Below, one piece after another: positions 6,327-58,064 of a stretch of DNA of 64,000 nt; the first letter of the stretch is position 1; every line of letters begins with the position of its first letter. Source of the stretch: an uncultured Lachnospiraceae bacterium (lineage in GTDB: Bacteria; Bacillota; Clostridia; Lachnospirales; Lachnospiraceae). Location: positions 1 through 64,000 of the forward strand of contig CAMFDG010000002.1 of the NCBI GenBank assembly GCA_945949045.1, written 5' to 3'. The notes under the pieces were generated by a model that did no database searches, had not been told where the DNA came from, and saw only the letters and a program-made list of their open reading frames with translations. A program made the translations under genes and the position numbers.

Positions 6327-6718
6327 TTGGGCTCCGGCAACACTTTTCTACTATGTGTCCACGAAATCATCTCTCATCCTCTCATTTTTCCTTTATATGG
6401 GCGATGGCAACAACTTTTGCCCCATGCGCCCACAAACTTTTCCATTATCCGCCCATGCACCCTTTCATATGGGCGATGGCGCACACTTTTCCACTATGCG
6501 CCCACAAATTTCTCTATAACCCGCCAATTTACCCTTTTATAGGGGCGCCGGCAACGACTTTTACGCTATGCGCCCATCTTCACCACGAAATTTGAAGGAG
6601 CGGCAAAAATTATGGGCGCATAGAGAATTTCTTTTCTCCACCGCCCATAATAGCCGATAAAATGCAGATTCATCACTCAATTGTGGGCGCATAGAAAATT
6701 TTTGTTTCCCATCGCCCA
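6327..6718. repeat. Array of six 35-bp palindromes, 71-72-bp period, with orientation flip
   Basis: Units begin at about 6327, 6398, 6470, 6541, 6613 and 6684, each about 35 bp with arms TGGGCG and CGCCCA. The first four read GGGCGATGGC...TATGCGCCCA (the first is degenerate). The last two read TGGGCGCATA...ATCGCCCA, which is the opposite orientation. The array fills the apt-nagB intergenic gap. No gene or promoter was recognised inside it. A second array with the same unit length and period lies at 24556-24877. Confidence 0.85.
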
Positions 6719-6781
6719 ATCTCCCTGAAAACGAATGTCCCTTTTCGGAAAAGTGTTCCCAAAATAGATTCTAATGCCTTC

Positions 6782-13720: not shown

Positions 13721-14500
13721 CCTATCAAGTGAATGAAAAAAGAGCATCCAAATGTGGTAAAATTAAGGTGTTCAAGACTTAATAAAAACCAACAAAGGAG
13801 CCCTTTATGAGTATTGTAAACACCTTATCATTAGAAAGCAATAGACAGATTAAAATAAATTTTGATGGAGGAGATTTATCCTCCGATGCAGGCTTACTTC
13901 TCATCAAAGAATTCGTAAGCAAACTTGGTATTGATAAGCTTTTAGGCAAAGCTTTCAAGACCAATGATCCTGCATTATTCAGATATCATACGGATCAGAA
14001 AAACCTGCTCCAGATGATATATATGATCATTGCCGGTTATTTCGAAGATGACGCTTCCGATGAACTGACAAACGATCCTGTATTCAAGTCTGTACTTGAA
14101 AAAGATGCCCTTGCATCACAGCCTACGGTATCAAGATTCTTTAACCGTATGGATGAAGATACCTTAAACCAGTTCCTCGCAATTGGCAGAGTACTTCGTA
14201 AGTGCTGAAGATTGCTGCAAAAGTAGTTCATTCAGCAAGATATATCACTTTCAAGCTGTGTAGCAGCTGCCCTTATAAGAAAGAGTTCTATGAGACACTT
14301 TCAAATATCAGCGAGCTTCATGTACAGCTGGAATAGCAACTATTAACGAACCTTGACAGCTTAATAACCATCTTGAAATCTGTCACAGGGATACTATACC
14401 CTTTTGACAGGTTTATGGACTACGGTTATGGCTGCAAGGATCAATTTTTTAATTCATGGCTCAGTTTTTAGTTCAGATGCTGTTCCGTGAATAATTCAGG
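13721..14500 (+). mobile_element. IS1380-type insertion sequence remnant (internally deleted)
   Basis: The element begins with CCTATCAAG and ends with ATAATTCAGG, so both ends carry the CCT...AGG termini expected for this family. The inverted repeats are poor but share GTGAAT/ATTCAC and AGCATC/GATGCT. It is 780 bp, about half the usual length, and contains a broken transposase. The flanking bases do not form a duplication, so the insertion is old or rearranged. Confidence 0.65.
13807..14335 (+). pseudogene. IS1380-family transposase remnant
   Basis: The first 133 codons (13807-14208) read as the N-terminal part of an IS1380-type DDE transposase: INFDGGDLSSDAGLLLIKEF, YHTDQKNLLQMIYMIIAGYFEDD and SQPTVSRFFNRMDE. 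The frame stops at 14206-14208. A different frame then gives KIAAKVVHSARYITFKLCSS, CPYKKEFYETL and ISELHVQLE before a stop at 14333-14335, which I recall as the usual C-terminal end of these transposases. The catalytic middle is absent, so the element cannot move by itself. A GGAGCC ribosome-like site precedes the ATG. Confidence 0.75.
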
Positions 14501-14579
14501 ATTTATATTCTTGTATAAAATTTTCTTAAGGAATATGGGATTAAATTCCACTACATTTCATACAAGCGAAGGTGTGTCC

Positions 14580-14937
14580 GTAGTGGGATGAAATTCCATA
14601 TTTTTTATTTCGCCCGCTTGATTTTTCAACGTAGTACGGGTGAAATTCTCATTTCTCAGATTCCGCCCGTACAATGAGTCCGCTTGGTACGGGTGAAATT
14701 CATATTTTGAGGTTTTCACCCGTACGATCAGTCTGTTGTGTACGGGTGAAATTCCCAATTTGTAGTTTTCACCCGTACGATGTGCCTGTTGTGTACGGGT
14801 GGAATACGCATTTTGCAGTTTTCACCCGTACGATGTGCCTGTTGTGTACGGGTGAAATTCTCGTTTCGCAGATTTCACCCGTACAATGAGTCTGCTTGGT
14901 ACGGGTGAAATACGCATTTTGCAGATTCCACCCGTAC
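14580..14937. repeat. Array of six 39-bp palindromes, exact 53-bp period
   Basis: Full units occupy 14634-14672, 14687-14725, 14740-14778, 14793-14831, 14846-14884 and 14899-14937. Each starts GTACGGGTG and ends CACCCGTAC or CGCCCGTAC. Spacers are exactly 14 bp, of two types (AATGAGTCYGCTTG and GATGTGCCTGTTGT-like). A degenerate unit precedes at about 14580-14619, with a further trace near 14534. The arms pair perfectly or nearly so while the central bases vary. The array lies between an IS remnant and the LytTR gene. A second array with the same period and related arms lies at 21531-21776. Confidence 0.92.
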
Positions 14938-15037
14938 AGAGAGTCTCCGCGAATAAATATATATTCGCGGGAACAGAAATAGAAAAGATAATACTGCAAA
15001 TATCTCCATACTTTCAAGCATTGCCATTCTTTTGTCC

Positions 15038-15498
15038 TTATATATTAAATGCATCTCGAAAACTATGATAATAGCTTCTTGTCACTTCCAAATTTCTTCC
15101 ATCTGCCATGATCAGAACAAATTTCATGGACAACGATGGGATAATATGCTTCACTTTTTTCTTGGCAGTAATCACCGATTTGCTGATTCTTGTAAATCTT
15201 GCAGGATCAAGCATTCCCTCGAGCCGGTATAAAGGATCAAGTCCGTAAAAGACACCATTCTCTGAAGTAATCTCAATTTGATGACCATAGCTTTCTATAT
15301 ACAGAATATCGTCGATGGAAATATAACTCCTGTCATCATTTTCTTTCTTTTTAGCTGCCAGATGTCCTGCATAAGTATCTTTCTGGATCAGAATGAATTC
15401 GGCATCATCGTCAGTTTCGATTCCCTTTTCCTCCAGGAGCTGTCTGACTTCTTCCATTCTCCCATTCTTTCATCTGCAACCGCCAGCCGTATTTTCAT
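15038..15498 (-). pseudogene. LytTR-domain DNA-binding protein with probable frameshift
   Basis: The C-terminal 100 residues form a LytTR DNA-binding domain: YISIDDILYIESYGHQIEI, FTRISKSVITAKKKVKHI and ADGRNLEVTRSYYHSFRDAF. An ATG at 15498 preceded by GGAGGTGGG encodes MKIRLAVADER, the expected start, but is out of frame with the rest. The open frame of the main domain begins at 15457 without a properly spaced ribosome site. A single missing base near 15458-15465 would restore one protein of about 152 residues. Stand-alone LytTR proteins like this usually autoregulate together with a small membrane gene; none is next to it here. Either a pseudogene or a sequencing error. Confidence 0.65.
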
Positions 15499-15681
15499 GA
15501 ACCCACCTCCTTTTGCTTTGATCTTCCCTTTTTGTTGAACCCATTATAGGAAATCGCCTTTTCAAATACAAGAACTTCCTCCCAAGTTGCACCTTTTCAT
15601 GCGTAAAATGCAAAAGACTATTGCCCCGACAATTTTACCAAAAAAATTTACCCACCCTCCAAAAACCTCCCTATTTTTACT

Positions 15682-15717
15682 AAATCAACAAATAGGTGGT
15701 ATGAAATTTGTTGATTT
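15682..15717. promoter_or_regulatory. Inverted repeat upstream of pckA
   Basis: Perfect 12-bp arms AAATCAACAAAT (15682-15693) and ATTTGTTGATTT (15706-15717) are separated by 12 bp. The right arm overlaps the pckA -35 and is also half of a near-palindrome TTGTTGAT-TTT-ATCAATAA. It looks like an operator. The nearby region 15499-15660 shows no gene or other recognisable feature. Confidence 0.55.
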
Positions 15718-15738
15718 TATCAATAAAATATGTATAAT
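15711..15738 (+). promoter_or_regulatory. pckA promoter
   Basis: -35 TTGATT (15711-15716) and a consensus -10 TATAAT (15733-15738) with a 16-bp spacer leave a leader of roughly 95 nt before pckA. Confidence 0.7.
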
Positions 15739-15842
15739 ACTAAATTAGGGAAAAAGGATTTCCCCAGGCACCAGATAAATAGAGGCTGCGCTGCAGTGCT
15801 TTATTCATATTACTATATTATAAGGAAAGAGGTTAAAGGAAA

Positions 15843-17447
15843 ATGGCAGAAATCAATTTAAGCAAGTATGGTATTACCGGTACTACAGAGATCGTACACA
15901 ACCCTTCTTATGATGAGTTATTCAATGAGGAGACAAAGCCGGAACTGGAAGGCTTTGAAAAGGGTCAGGTCAGCGAGCTTGGCGCTGTCAACGTTATGAC
16001 CGGAATCTATACCGGACGTTCCCCGAAAGACAAGTTCATCGTTGAGGATGAGACCTCTAAGGATACAGTTTGGTGGACATCTGATGAATACAAGAACGAT
16101 AACCACAAGGCAAGCAAAGAAGCATGGGATGCTGTTAAGGATCTGGCAATCAAGGAGCTTTCCAACAAGAAGCTTTATGTTGTAGATGCTTTCTGCGGTG
16201 CTAACAAAGATACCCGCATGGCAATCCGTTTTATCGTAGAGGTTGCCTGGCAGGCACATTTCGTAACCAATATGTTCATTCAGCCAACCGCTGAGGAACT
16301 TGAGAATTTTGAGCCGGATTTCGTTGTTTACAACGCATCCAAGGCTAAGGTTGAGAACTACAAGGAGTTAGGATTAAATTCTGAGACTGCTGTTATGTTT
16401 AACCTGACCACCAAGGAGCAGGTAATCGCAAATACCTGGTACGGCGGAGAGATGAAGAAGGGTATGTTCTCCATGATGAACTACTTCCTGCCGCTGAAGG
16501 GCATCGCTTCTATGCACTGTTCTGCAAACACCGACTTAAACGGCGAGAACACCGCAATCTTCTTCGGTCTGTCCGGAACAGGTAAGACTACCCTTTCTAC
16601 TGACCCGAAGCGTCTTCTGATCGGTGATGATGAGCACGGCTGGGATGACAACGGTGTATTCAACTTTGAGGGTGGCTGCTACGCTAAGGTTATCGATCTG
16701 GACAAGGATTCCGAGCCGGATATCTACAATGCCATCAAGCGTGACGCTCTGTTAGAGAACGTAACACTGGATGAGAACGGCAAGATTGATTTCGCTGATA
16801 AGAGCGTAACCGAGAACACTCGTGTTTCTTACCCGATTAACCATATTCAGAATATTGTACGCCCGATCTCTTCTGCACCGGCAGCAAAGAACGTAATCTT
16901 CCTGTCAGCAGATGCATTCGGAGTACTTCCTCCGGTATCTATCCTGACACCAGAGCAGACCAAGTACTACTTCCTGTCCGGTTTCACCGCAAAGCTTGCC
17001 GGAACCGAGCGTGGAATCACTGAGCCGACTCCTACTTTCTCCGCATGTTTCGGACAGGCATTCCTTGAGCTGCATCCTACCAAGTATGCTGAGGAGCTTG
17101 TTAAGAGAATGGAGAAGAGCGGCGCAAAGGCTTACCTTGTAAATACCGGATGGAACGGAACCGGAAAGCGTATCTCCATCAAGGATACCCGTGGTATCAT
17201 CGATGCCATCTTAAACGGAGATATCTTAAACGCTCCTACTAAGAAGATCCCATACTTCAACTTCGAGGTACCGACCGAGCTTAACGGTGTGGATACAGGC
17301 ATTCTTGATCCTCGTGATACCTATGCAGATGCTTCTGAGTGGGAAGCTAAGGCTAAGGATCTTGCGCAGAGATTCATCAAGAACTTCGCTAAGTATGAGG
17401 GCAATGAGGCTGGTAAGGCATTAGTTGCTGCTGGTCCTCAGCTTTAA
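15843..17447 (+). CDS. pckA: Phosphoenolpyruvate carboxykinase (ATP)
   Basis: The 534-residue enzyme interconverts oxaloacetate + ATP and PEP + CO2 + ADP. In fermentative gut anaerobes it often runs toward oxaloacetate. Motifs are the substrate loop [18 protein letters not shown] near residue 50, [19 protein letters not shown] (PCK-specific), the P-loop [14 protein letters not shown] near residue 240, the metal-site segment [20 protein letters not shown] and the C-terminal lid [10 protein letters not shown]. Length is normal. AAGGAAAGAGG lies upstream of the ATG. Codon choice is strongly biased compared with neighbours (many AAG, GAG, AAC), suggesting high expression. It is monocistronic, with its own promoter and terminator. 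Confidence 0.98.
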
Positions 17448-21530: not shown

Positions 21531-21776
21531 TACGGGTGGTTTTTATGTTTTTCCTTTTTCGCCCGTATGTTTTCACCCTTGTGTACGGGTGATTATTATG
21601 TTTTTCCATTTTCGCCCGTAATCTTTCGTTCTTTTGTACGGGTGATTTTTATGTTTTCCTTTTTCGCCCGTATGTTTTCATCCTTGTGTACGGGCGATTT
21701 TTGTGTTTTCCCTTTTTCGCCCGTTGGTCTTCATCATTGTGTACGGGCGGTTTTTATGTTTTCCCTTTTTGCCCCA
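21531..21776. repeat. Array of five 36/37-bp palindromes, 53-bp period
   Basis: Units start at 21531, 21584, 21637, 21689 and 21742. Each begins TACGGGTG or TACGGGCG and ends CGCCCGTA or close, with a T-rich centre (TTTTTATGTTTTTCC-like) and 16-bp spacers of the form TGTTTTCAYCCTTGTG. Period and arms match the array at 14.6 kb, while the centres differ. The array sits between the binding-protein and permease genes of the cobalamin-riboswitch set. Confidence 0.9.
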
Positions 21777-21825
21777 TATCAAGCCCTGCAGGATAAGACA
21801 GGACAAGATAAAATGAAACAAGGGC

Positions 21826-24407: not shown

Positions 24408-24555
24408 TTCCTCATTTCCTCCAACAATCTAAAACATCGGTCCCGGCCTATTTTCTTAACTATCGTGACTTCCCCTGGAAACGATAAGGATATATAGAAA
24501 TAACAAGTCCTCACTCCCCAGCCACAGCTTGTACGTGCTTATTAAATTTCTTCTA

Positions 24556-24877
24556 TGGGCATTCCAGGAGATTTTTTCTATATGCGCCCATACCTTCTTT
24601 ACGACTTCCGCTTATTTTATAGGTTCCAGAACATTTTGAATCACTTTTTTCATATACGCCCATATATCTACAGAACTTTATGATTTTTCCTCGGAATATG
24701 GGCGCATGAAGAATAATTACTCTCCACCGCCCATTTATCCAGCAATCTGACACTCCTATCGTCGATGTCCTGGGCGCATGGAGAATAATTGTTCTCCACC
24801 GACCATTTATTTGTCAATCTGACGCTCCTAACATCCATGGCCTGGGCGCATAGAAAATTTTCATTCCGAATCGCCCA
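24556..24877. repeat. Array of five 35-bp palindromes, 72-bp period, with orientation flip
   Basis: Units are 24556-24590, 24628-24662 (degenerate), 24699-24733, 24771-24805 and 24843-24877. The first two end in the TATGCGCCCA-type arm; the last three begin TGGGCGCAT. Unit orientation therefore inverts once, as in the 6.3-kb array. The 37-bp spacers of the last three units are also alike (CAATCTGACRCTCCTA shared). The array lies between cbiK and the lipoprotein gene. Confidence 0.88.
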
Positions 24878-24956
24878 TTCTGCCTGTGTCATCGATGATA
24901 ATGGCGCTAATTTTCCGCTTAGTCAATATTCACATTGAATCGCTATCCCAAGATAC

Positions 24957-26439: not shown

Positions 26440-26640
26440 TGTTCCACTCCTATGCTGCAGGCAGGTCTCCTGACTTCGCGGATCAAAGCTCATGACCGTC
26501 TTCCCGGTTTCCCAGTGACATCTATGGTCCCTCGCTCCCCGCTCACAGTGACGAGTTCGTACAGGATTTGCACCTGTTTCCCTTTTCATTCTGCCTGTAA
26601 GAAACTGTTCTGTTTCTTACAGCAAAACACCTGCATTTGT
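26440..26640 (-). ncRNA. Cobalamin riboswitch upstream of cbiK
   Basis: Minus-strand conserved blocks appear in order: AACAGGTGCAAATCCTGT, ACGAACTCGTCACTGTGA, CGGGGAGCGAGGGACC, TGTCACTGGGAAACCGGGAA and GAAGTCAGGAGACCTGCC. These are the hallmark segments of the adenosylcobalamin-binding aptamer, including the B12-box region. High cobalamin would repress the cbiK and transporter set through the terminator at 26262-26300. Ends are approximate. Confidence 0.95.
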
Positions 26641-26748
26641 AACCATAACACAATTCTGCTTATTTGTAAACAAAACAGTTCATTTTTTCGTGCTTTACAC
26701 CTCCCGTCGAATCTCCTAAGTCCTATCACATTTTCCCGATTTCATGAA

Positions 26749-56603: not shown

Positions 56604-58064
56604 TCAAAGTAGAAGGGCCTGCCGCAGCTTTTCCCGCAGCAATTGATCTGTTGCCCACCGGGAGCCTGCAGCCAGGCCCCCTTTTTCTTCCGGAATCAGA
56701 TTTCTGTTTTCATCTTCAAAGTATTTCCGGCTGATAAATCTGCATCGAATCGGAAGCTTCTTCTCTCCGGCATCCGGTGTGGCCGGATCCGGCTGCGTTG
56801 AGTCCGGTGTGGTGGGATCCGGTGTGGTTGGGTCCGGCGTGGTCGGGTCCGGCGTCACTGGGTCCGGCGTCACTGGGTCCGGTGTGACTGGGTCCGGTGT
56901 GGTCGGGTCCGGCGTCACTGGGTCCGGCGTCACTGGGTCCGGCGTCACTGGGTCCGGTGTGGTCGGGTCCGGCTCCTGTTCCTTCCACACCGCATACAGA
57001 TCTACCTGTGGACTGTGCTTGATGATCCAGCTTCCCCTAATAATGGAATTCACAGAATAATCCTTTTCCTTTGCGCCAGCCGCCAAAGCCCAGCCCAGCA
57101 TATCATTTTTCTCATTCCACCCGGTATTCTGAAAATGCATATTCTCATTTCCATAAGCCACCTTCTGATAGGCGGTTACGGTATCCCCGGAAGATTTATT
57201 CCGATGAAACACAATCGTAAGCTCCTTTGCTCTGGCCACGGCGTTCCACCTCTGATTTCCGTTGACACAGGTGCTTATCTCCGGAAATCCATAACGTTCC
57301 GGTCCCTCCCACCGGTCAAACTCATAGCCGGACTCTGTTTTTGCCTTTAATACCACATTGGTTCCGAAACAGTATTCGCCCCCTCCCGATACAGAAGCAA
57401 TTCCGGTCTCTTTTCTCACCTGCAGCGTAAAAAACAATCCCTGTACCGGTTTATCAAAATAATTATAAAAGGATTGTCTCGCCGATGCACTCCAGTTTGC
57501 AGCATTGGAGATTCCGCTGTAGGTGGTATAGACACTGCCGGAGGTCGGCCCGCTGTCATTCATTGCCCCCTTTGCCCTTCCGTTTTTTACAACGACCATA
57601 CACGCGTCAAATACAATGCTCAGATTTCCCTTGTTCATGGCATTCAGCGCCGCATCATTCATTCTCCGTTTCAGATTTCCCAGGGGGAGCACATACAGAT
57701 TATATTCATAATTGGATTTCGTAGTGACATCTGTTTTATACATGTAAGAGCCGCCCAGCTTAAAATACAGTGTCTGCAGGGTGGAACCCGACCGGTTCTG
57801 AATACGAACCTTCCAGCCAATGGTCCGGTATCTGGTATTGGTGCTGGCCTTGGCCGCCTTTGTAGCACAGTATATTTCCCCATCCGTATTCGAAGTGGGC
57901 CGGAATACCACATCATTTTCATAGCTCCGAAAATACGAATACGCGTTATCCCATACACTTGCCATCACTGTCTGCTGACAGACCGGCAGCATCCCGAAAA
58001 GCATGGCAAGAACCAGACTTACAGACAGACTTCGGATTATCCTCTTTTTTCGTACGCTTCTCAT
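56604..58064 (-). CDS. Secreted surface protein with PDPVT repeats, Tad-locus associated
   Basis: The protein is about 486 residues with a signal peptide (RSLSVSLVLAMLFGML, cleavage near VMAS). Residues about 40-230 form an unrecognised domain (NAYSYFRSYENDVVFRPTSN). A second part has VSGGGEYCFGTNVVLKAKTE and GYEFDRWEGP, like the repeats of bacterial Ig/List-Bact domains, and QVDLYAVWKE. A Pro-rich stalk of about twelve 5-residue units (DPVTP/DPTTP, 56800-56975) is followed by about 50 residues (RFISRKYFEDENRNLIPEEK, SRWATDQLLREKL). No sortase motif or C-terminal helix was found. The next gene upstream overlaps by 4 bp, so it ends the Tad transcript and may be a pilus-associated surface or tip protein (inference). 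Confidence 0.75.
   Translation of the reverse strand: MRSVRKKRIIRSLSVSLVLAMLFGMLPVCQQTVMASVWDNAYSYFRSYENDVVFRPTSNTDGEIYCATKAAKASTNTRYRTIGWKVRIQNRSGSTLQTLYFKLGGSYMYKTDVTTKSNYEYNLYVLPLGNLKRRMNDAALNAMNKGNLSIVFDACMVVVKNGRAKGAMNDSGPTSGSVYTTYSGISNAANWSASARQSFYNYFDKPVQGLFFTLQVRKETGIASVSGGGEYCFGTNVVLKAKTESGYEFDRWEGPERYGFPEISTCVNGNQRWNAVARAKELTIVFHRNKSSGDTVTAYQKVAYGNENMHFQNTGWNEKNDMLGWALAAGAKEKDYSVNSIIRGSWIIKHSPQVDLYAVWKEQEPDPTTPDPVTPDPVTPDPVTPDPTTPDPVTPDPVTPDPVTPDPTTPDPTTPDPTTPDSTQPDPATPDAGEKKLPIRCRFISRKYFEDENRNLIPEEKGGLAAGSRWATDQLLREKLRQALLL
56800..56975 (-). repeat. 15-bp tandem repeat encoding the PDPVT/PDPTT stalk
   Basis: Units of GTCACTGGGTCCGGC and GTGGTCGGGTCCGGC type (plus strand) repeat about twelve times. 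Variants alternate between Val-Thr and Thr-Thr, giving a higher-order pattern (T, V, V, V, T, V, V, V, T, T, T). The stretch is prone to slippage in whole codons. Confidence 0.9.

Follow-up and report, generated by a model that had tools for sequence, protein, structure and literature searches.

An intergenic family of tandem palindromes with a 53-bp period dispersed in a few Lachnospiraceae genomes: possible phased DNA sites

The array locus and its surroundings

The DNA analysed here (the window) is a stretch of 64,000 nucleotides, positions 1 to 64,000 of contig CAMFDG010000002.1 of an uncultured Lachnospiraceae bacterium (assembly GCA_945949045.1), and the host genome is an 80% complete MAG of 2.16 Mb in 78 contigs. 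Between a truncated transposase gene and a LytTR-domain protein gene lies a tandem array of palindromes (array 1, Table 1), which includes six 39-bp units and five 14-bp spacers of two types and keeps a start-to-start distance of 53 bp in all five intervals, exactly as described in an earlier, sequence-only reading of this DNA. The arms are GTACGGGTG and CACCCGTAC, with CGCCCGTAC instead in unit 1, and the spacers are represented by AATGAGTCYGCTTG (two copies) and GATnnGYCTGTTGT (three copies). The 37-bp core of this repeat family, designated as family A, was defined as TACGGGYG-N21-CRCCCGTA, followed by 16 bp to the next core. For the looser palindrome ACGGGYG-N10-30-CRCCCGT, 100 shuffles predict 0.02 matches, whereas the window contains 10, of which six form array 1 and four belong to array 2. 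Array 2 starts 21 bp upstream of a minus-strand FecCD permease gene (Pfam), counted from its start codon.

Table 1. Coordinates of repeat arrays and of the genes flanking array 1 (window positions unless a locus is named)
Feature	Location	Strand	Basis	Remarks
DDE transposase gene, 5' part, truncated	13807..14208	+	Pfam (PF13701)	profile positions 2-125 of 435; left neighbour of array 1
Family A array 1	14634..14937	+	sequence inspection, repeat and palindrome searches	six 39-bp units, five 14-bp spacers, period 53
Array 1 unit 1 core	14635..14671	+	pattern search
Array 1 unit 2 core	14688..14724	+	pattern search
Array 1 unit 3 core	14741..14777	+	pattern search
Array 1 unit 4 core	14794..14830	+	pattern search
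Array 1 unit 5 core	14847..14883	+	pattern search
Array 1 unit 6 core	14900..14936	+	pattern search
LytTR-domain protein gene	15038..15457	-	Pfam (PF04397)	3' end faces array 1, 101 bp away
Family A array 2	21531..21778	+	repeat and pattern searches	five units, the fifth degenerate; spacings 53, 53, 52, 53
Family B array, five units	6396..6720		pattern search	spacings 72, 72, 71, 71; orientations - - - + +
Family B array, four units found	24554..24879		pattern search	spacings 143, 72, 72; orientations - + + +
Family C arrays	L076 6515-6660, L077 1330-1466		tandem-palindrome search

Just left of array 1, at positions 14529-14600, there is an imperfect inverted repeat, ATATGGGATTAAATTCCACTA / TAGTGGGATGAAATTCCATAT, which is perhaps the end of the transposon remnant. 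A cobalamin riboswitch (26443-26649, minus strand, 106 bits) lies upstream of the part of the window that contains the FecCD gene and array 2, and it was the only match at gathering score when the whole window was compared with Rfam 15. In the nearest species the PEPCK locus is different past position 15628, and other genes stand upstream of PEPCK.

Family A loci were taken from the window, L046-L058, and L074-L094 and gave 33 array pieces, L079 being excluded from all unit counts. All 33 pieces lie outside the neighbouring ORFs that were kept, the ORFs overlapping an array by at least 40 nt having been dropped beforehand; there were 22 such overlapping ORFs of at least 85 aa with both start and stop, and 21 of them had no Pfam match. 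The remaining one (L076:1842-2915) is an ABC transporter frame with the domain at residues 129-275, whose longest start runs into the array, and a kinase gene overlaps the L051 array by 16 nt. Classes of gene orientation drawn from these mechanical ORFs contain errors, L076 being scored as convergent after the removal of its ABC frame. One neighbour is missing for 17 of the pieces, L084 and 16 pieces that fall at contig ends, which makes these repeats a practical problem for such assemblies.

Distribution of the family and comparison with known repeats

Array 1 is one copy of an intergenic repeat family dispersed in a few Lachnospiraceae, found in the host genome and in four other MAGs. The host contains 28 exact TACGGGTG...CACCCGTA palindromes and, on one strand, 70 places with at most two mismatches to TAYGGGYG-N21-CRCCCRTA (four for the reversed control), which occupy at least 16 stretches, as judged from 50 of the 70 places together with other matches, among them the exact palindromes; several of these stretches lie at contig ends, and some probably join. 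A scan of 84,980 species with one genome per species, which may lack records close to the host and misses drifted families through its demand for exact arms, revealed 21 stretches. Twenty of them belong to Lachnospiraceae MAGs, namely, E04__bin340 (3), SRR12081296_bin.90 (5), RGIG7929 (6), and Agathobacter sp. SUG487 (6), the last being nearest to the host by PEPCK (99% identical), and the single match in Streptomyces (L079) was taken as chance. Exact spacer-centred pairs numbered 5 in bin340, 12 in bin.90, 15 in RGIG7929, and 15 in SUG487, with none in the controls. Among 59 other genomes sampled, which included 35 congeners, none had the tandem pattern, and there were no matches to family A in phage and plasmid collections and no viral contigs with the tandem pattern. 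Stretches of congeners amounting to 253 kb held no tandem-palindrome cluster of any arm, while blindly chosen host DNA (L059-L063, 100 kb) held three clusters, none of family A. The sequence-only reading had considered a local duplication, with a unit occurring only here and varying without compensatory changes; the first half of this is contradicted by the spread over five genomes, while the second half largely holds, as described below.

Two sister families were also identified. In the host, family B (TGGGCGNATRG...CGCCCA) was matched 60 times, 26 times on one strand and 34 on the other with one place counted on both, and among 63 other genomes two have a single match each and the rest none. 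In the 29 family B arrays collected from 20 stretches chosen around listed sites and from the other loci of this analysis, the 81 intervals measure 70-72 bp in 59 cases, 60-62 bp in 8, and 50 and 66 bp once each, and they are larger in 12, half of these larger ones being sums of two common values. The orientation of neighbouring units passes from minus to plus 25 times and from plus to minus 5 times, and 22 of the 29 arrays have exactly one switch, from minus to plus, so that they may be read as one inverted doublet expanded outwards. The two main spacings are about one turn apart, as helical phasing predicts; a single inherited 10-bp deletion could also have produced the 60-62 bp class. Family C (CGACACGC-N23-GCGTGTCG), found at one locus in two MAGs, has the same 53-bp period as family A, with AAA 8 bp apart.

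Bacterial palindromic repeats of the dispersed kind are usually attributed to copying by RAYT and to hairpins. The REP sequences and BIMEs are described, along with RAYT transposases, as short interspersed extragenic palindromes often standing in regularly spaced groups (PMC2817692, PMC3733652), and family A is likewise composed of short, extragenic, interspersed, and regularly grouped palindromes. It differs in the lack of a GTAG or CGTC end tag, the arm TACGGG being preceded by G, C, T, or A, and in a mostly unpaired middle of 21 bp, where A/T tracts keep fixed places, and in one 53-bp period in five species. BIME units alternate, whereas the direction of A/T tracts in family A appears, from per-array averages, mostly uniform over an array, and the strong polarity of 29 of the 33 pieces (|AT skew| of at least 0.3 averaged per array) would be cancelled by alternation. 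The Y1 transposase profile PF01797 (RAYT) was found neither in the host nor in the four other array genomes, an absence that is not proof in a host MAG 80% complete; membership among RAYT-linked REP sequences was rejected on this missing match. REPINs (PMC8049555) possess inverted arms and a diverse middle and are dispersed through the genome, which is equally true of family A, and family B resembles expanded inverted doublets; the differences of family A are the fixed lengths of middle and spacer, the lack of a detected RAYT in five genomes, and the longer tandem arrays. Regular repeat and spacer lengths are shared with CRISPR arrays, yet near-identical repeats and unique spacers are ruled out, since the spacers of family A recur within an array (69% identical) and its interiors vary (83% identical within an array). 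No description of the element was found in the literature searched, which included PMC2267715 and had preprints and most subscription journals outside its range; this, together with Rfam, agrees with the earlier statement that no named element has such a layout.

Arrays stand at corresponding loci of related species (host L054/L081, L055/L086, L076/L077, and L090/L093), and the window array at 21531 matches L089 on one flank only. Length was compared in L076 and L077, from two species with flanks about 94% identical, where the 302-bp array shows 32 substitutions and no length change, against 18 and 8 substitutions (26 in all) and 75 and 13 internal gap columns in the two 400-bp flanks; the gap columns arise from three gap events, at least the larger of which lies beside another tandem repeat. 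The bases identical between these two arrays are 85 of 96 in arms, 116 of 126 in interiors, and 69 of 80 in spacers, the arms being no better kept than the interiors mostly because the Y/R positions change freely. Arrays L052, L084, L055, and L086, from two species, have a common distinctive first unit and flanks in at least two unrelated sets, L055 and L086 being one locus and L052 and L084 sharing only 44 bp of flank; a shared first unit over unlike flanks indicates that array blocks were probably copied.

Such copying would be natural for a selfish or passive repeat of REP or satellite type without host function, spread by a past or unseen mobiliser and replication slippage, in which the geometry would reflect a demand of the copying machinery. 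This explanation, a close rival of phased DNA sites and a serious possibility at less than even odds, would also account for the patchy occurrence (tandem pattern in 0 of 59 relatives, no clusters in 253 kb of congener DNA against three in 100 kb of the host), for the 16 of 33 pieces at contig ends, where high-copy repeats tend to fall, and for the concentration of family B in the host with its expanded doublets. Against it stand the lack of a PF01797 match in all five array genomes (with the host 80% complete) and the conserved positions of A/T tracts and conserved lengths over near-random spacers, which suggest continuing constraint.

Unit anatomy and base pairing

The lengths were counted in a set of 154 units, restricted to units with a neighbour at 53 +/- 4 bp and derived from the host (71), SUG487 (37), bin.90 (21), RGIG7929 (15), and bin340 (10). 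In this set the start-to-start distance is 53 bp in 94 of 121 intervals, 52 bp in 23, and 51 bp in 4. Because the set preselects lengths, the count was repeated with half-sites alone (arms with at most one mismatch, array +/- 70 bp), leaving aside 7 overlapping self-matches and 17 same-direction neighbours, 11 of which were one period apart, as left by a lost half-site. The interior then measured 21 bp in 119 of 142 cases and 20 bp in 19 (13, 16, 22, and 71 bp once each), and the spacer measured 16 bp in 117 of 131 cases and 15 bp in 12 (12 and 28 bp once each). Sequence identity between arrays of the five species is 0.87 in arms, 0.52 in interiors, and 0.31 in spacers, and the respective values within arrays are 0.92, 0.83, and 0.69. 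The spacer keeps its length without keeping its sequence, which is more than an RNA linker would need, and a fixed spacing that outlasts most of the sequence suggests, without proving it, a row of docking sites for a putative protein.

Inside the interior, A or T accounts for 92-100% of the bases at positions 10-11, 18-19, and 26-27 (weighted by array, arrays unoriented). After orientation by the A-rich strand, which leaves out arrays with |AT skew| below 0.3 and by itself raises the share of A, the same six positions are A in 90-98% of 28 arrays, and the oriented consensus is TACGGGYG RAAW nnnn AAAW nnnn AAAW n CRCCCGTA. Of the 33 array pieces, 30 have left and right tracts on the same strand. 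Array 1 is one of the three exceptions, the other two being probably one array split at a contig end, and due to its tracts on opposite strands its hairpins look longer than the family norm.

The arms of family A are able to fold: each unit of array 1 folds far better than its shuffles (z -4.7 to -6.8), and the arms are paired in 92.5% of cells over 58 distinct units. Selection on the fold, which the sequence-only reading proposed from loop-side bases varying in a paired way, is not clearly seen and is at best weakly supported by the sequence comparisons. In the six units of array 1 the arm-adjacent bases give A-T, A-C, and G-T with no double compensatory change. In the 58 units arm pairs are near-invariant or freely mispairing, and the sole arm pair that changes on both sides, 7-31, is UA in 19, CG in 14, UG in 7, and mispaired in 18; the arm covariation score was reached by 21 of 500 shuffles. 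The interior is paired in 33.7% of cells, reached by 5 of 500 shuffles, with slid controls at 21-30%, and its 40 two-sided cells exceed the 29.3 of shuffles (0 of 500 reach); the slid controls gave up to 39 such cells (slide of 3 columns) and higher covariation scores. With arrays unoriented, the interior complementarity is 0.275 against 0.398 when arrays are mixed (sd 0.035; the former value was equalled or exceeded by all 500 shuffles). In 154 units the outer pair, adjacent to the 8-bp arms, is G-C in 69, C-G in 18, T-A in 7, and G-T or T-G in 30, and it is divided by clade, with G-C in the host, SUG487, and bin340 and C-G in the two sister MAGs. This two-sided change may represent one compensatory event and is equally open to explanation by a symmetric DNA site.

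According to these data an RNA element, in which transcribed 8-9 bp hairpins with A-rich loops would follow one another and stabilise, attenuate, or separate neighbouring transcripts, is improbable. It could draw on the folding scores of the window units, on the outer pair (95 Watson-Crick and 30 G-T or T-G among 154 units, plus the clade change), on the excess of two-sided interior cells, and on the strand asymmetry, where the mean A/T skew is 0.61 in loops and 0.40 in linkers against 0.15 in flanks and, in about 16 of 20 loci, the nearest gene has the A-rich strand as its sense strand (a hand tally with a judged choice of gene and two loci left out). However, gaps between ordinary tandem genes are A-skewed in the sense direction too, in 30 of 43 own and 30 of 37 congener gaps, though to a smaller extent than the arrays, and for this reason the asymmetry was not relied on as a sign of RNA. 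Furthermore, when the pair 7-31 is read on the A-rich strand of 127 units, 35 have C-A and 14 have T-G, the reverse of the RNA wobble prediction; an interior partner slid by 3 columns does nearly as well in two-sided cells and better in covariation; and the linker of an RNA chain should not be fixed in length. Rfam gave no match for the array, the eight microRNA-like matches in 14500-15000 being far below gathering scores. Intrinsic terminators were considered as well, and the two terminator-like sites detected in 14400-15900 are both outside the array.

Phased DNA sites as the favoured reading

Operators of a classical regulator controlling the neighbouring genes as a regulon are very unlikely, since some arrays (window 21531, L047, L080, L083, and L090) do lie 21-58 bp from an ORF start codon, the ORFs near L047 and L080 having no Pfam match, but others are at 3' ends or between convergent genes, and the neighbours (FecCD, LytTR, ArsC, histidine kinase, M20 peptidase, MutS_V, rRNA methylase, beta-CASP nuclease, and NadC) have no common theme.

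The reading favoured over the selfish repeat, the RNA hairpin chain, and the regulon is that family A is a REP/BIME-like dispersed repeat kept as phased DNA sites for a putative protein, about five helical turns apart, with a probability of roughly 0.42. The repeat would then act as DNA, offering binding sites in a regular row, where each 37-bp unit is a bipartite site with two inverted TACGGGYG half-sites 29 bp apart, possibly read in the major groove by a dimer, and the short A/T tracts between them (about positions 10-12, 17-20, and 25-28) may be read or bent at the minor groove. The 16-bp spacer of nearly indifferent sequence would place successive sites about five helical turns apart and could thereby align neighbouring proteins on one face of the DNA, perhaps with cooperative binding. 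The repeat would reach new intergenic places as a block and grow or shrink there by tandem duplication, and a host role, for example, the chromosome organisation proposed for BIMEs, may be envisaged.

Phased DNA sites are consistent with the arms and the period common to five species, with lengths kept over sequence turnover, with the L076/L077 array free of length change beside flanks with three gap events, and with the period of family C under other arms and the spacing classes of family B. The suggestion of the sequence-only reading that the constant period could place proteins on one helix face is in this respect the best surviving of its ideas, drawing on the 53-bp pitch held in five species over near-random spacers and on the two main family B spacings (70-72 and 60-62 bp). 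Several observations weigh on the other side. The closeness of 53 bp to five turns is weak by itself, losses of single bases are tolerated (of 121 intervals, 23 measure 52 bp and 4 measure 51 bp), the flank comparison depends on three gap events with at least one in another tandem repeat, and the 60-62 bp class of family B may descend from one deletion. One-strand A/T tracts, as in 30 of 33 pieces, are not needed by a symmetric dimer, the clade split of the outer pair is also allowed by a hairpin, the arms of L076/L077 are no better kept than the interiors, and patchy distribution with copy-number turnover suits the selfish repeat equally.

A broader reading, which we regard as rather unlikely, is that this Lachnospiraceae lineage has a modular chromosomal scaffold, in which the arrays would be bound by a putative undescribed family of architectural proteins aligned on one DNA face. 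The arms (TACGGGYG, CGACACGC, and TGGGCGNATRG) would provide specificity, and the regular pitch and A/T tracts would be common; if so, the arms change between species and families and the geometry of the machine stays. Family A is of interest as a repeat family with no detected RAYT and little sign of fold selection, in which lengths and tract positions are kept while the sequence turns over, and the array could serve as direct bait for a new DNA-binding protein, with scrambled arms and half-turn spacer insertions as clean controls.

Other repeats were observed in the same material. A tandem inverted-repeat array with a period of 64 (TTGGATTAC...GTAATC) occupies L059 4312-4577, and nested hairpins with CCGAAGG loops are found at L063 6866-7063 (period 87, 95% matches) and L061 6862-7005 (period 80). 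In the window itself, positions 56773-56973 carry a 15-bp/60-bp tandem repeat, TCCGGTGTGGCTGGG, which is perhaps coding.
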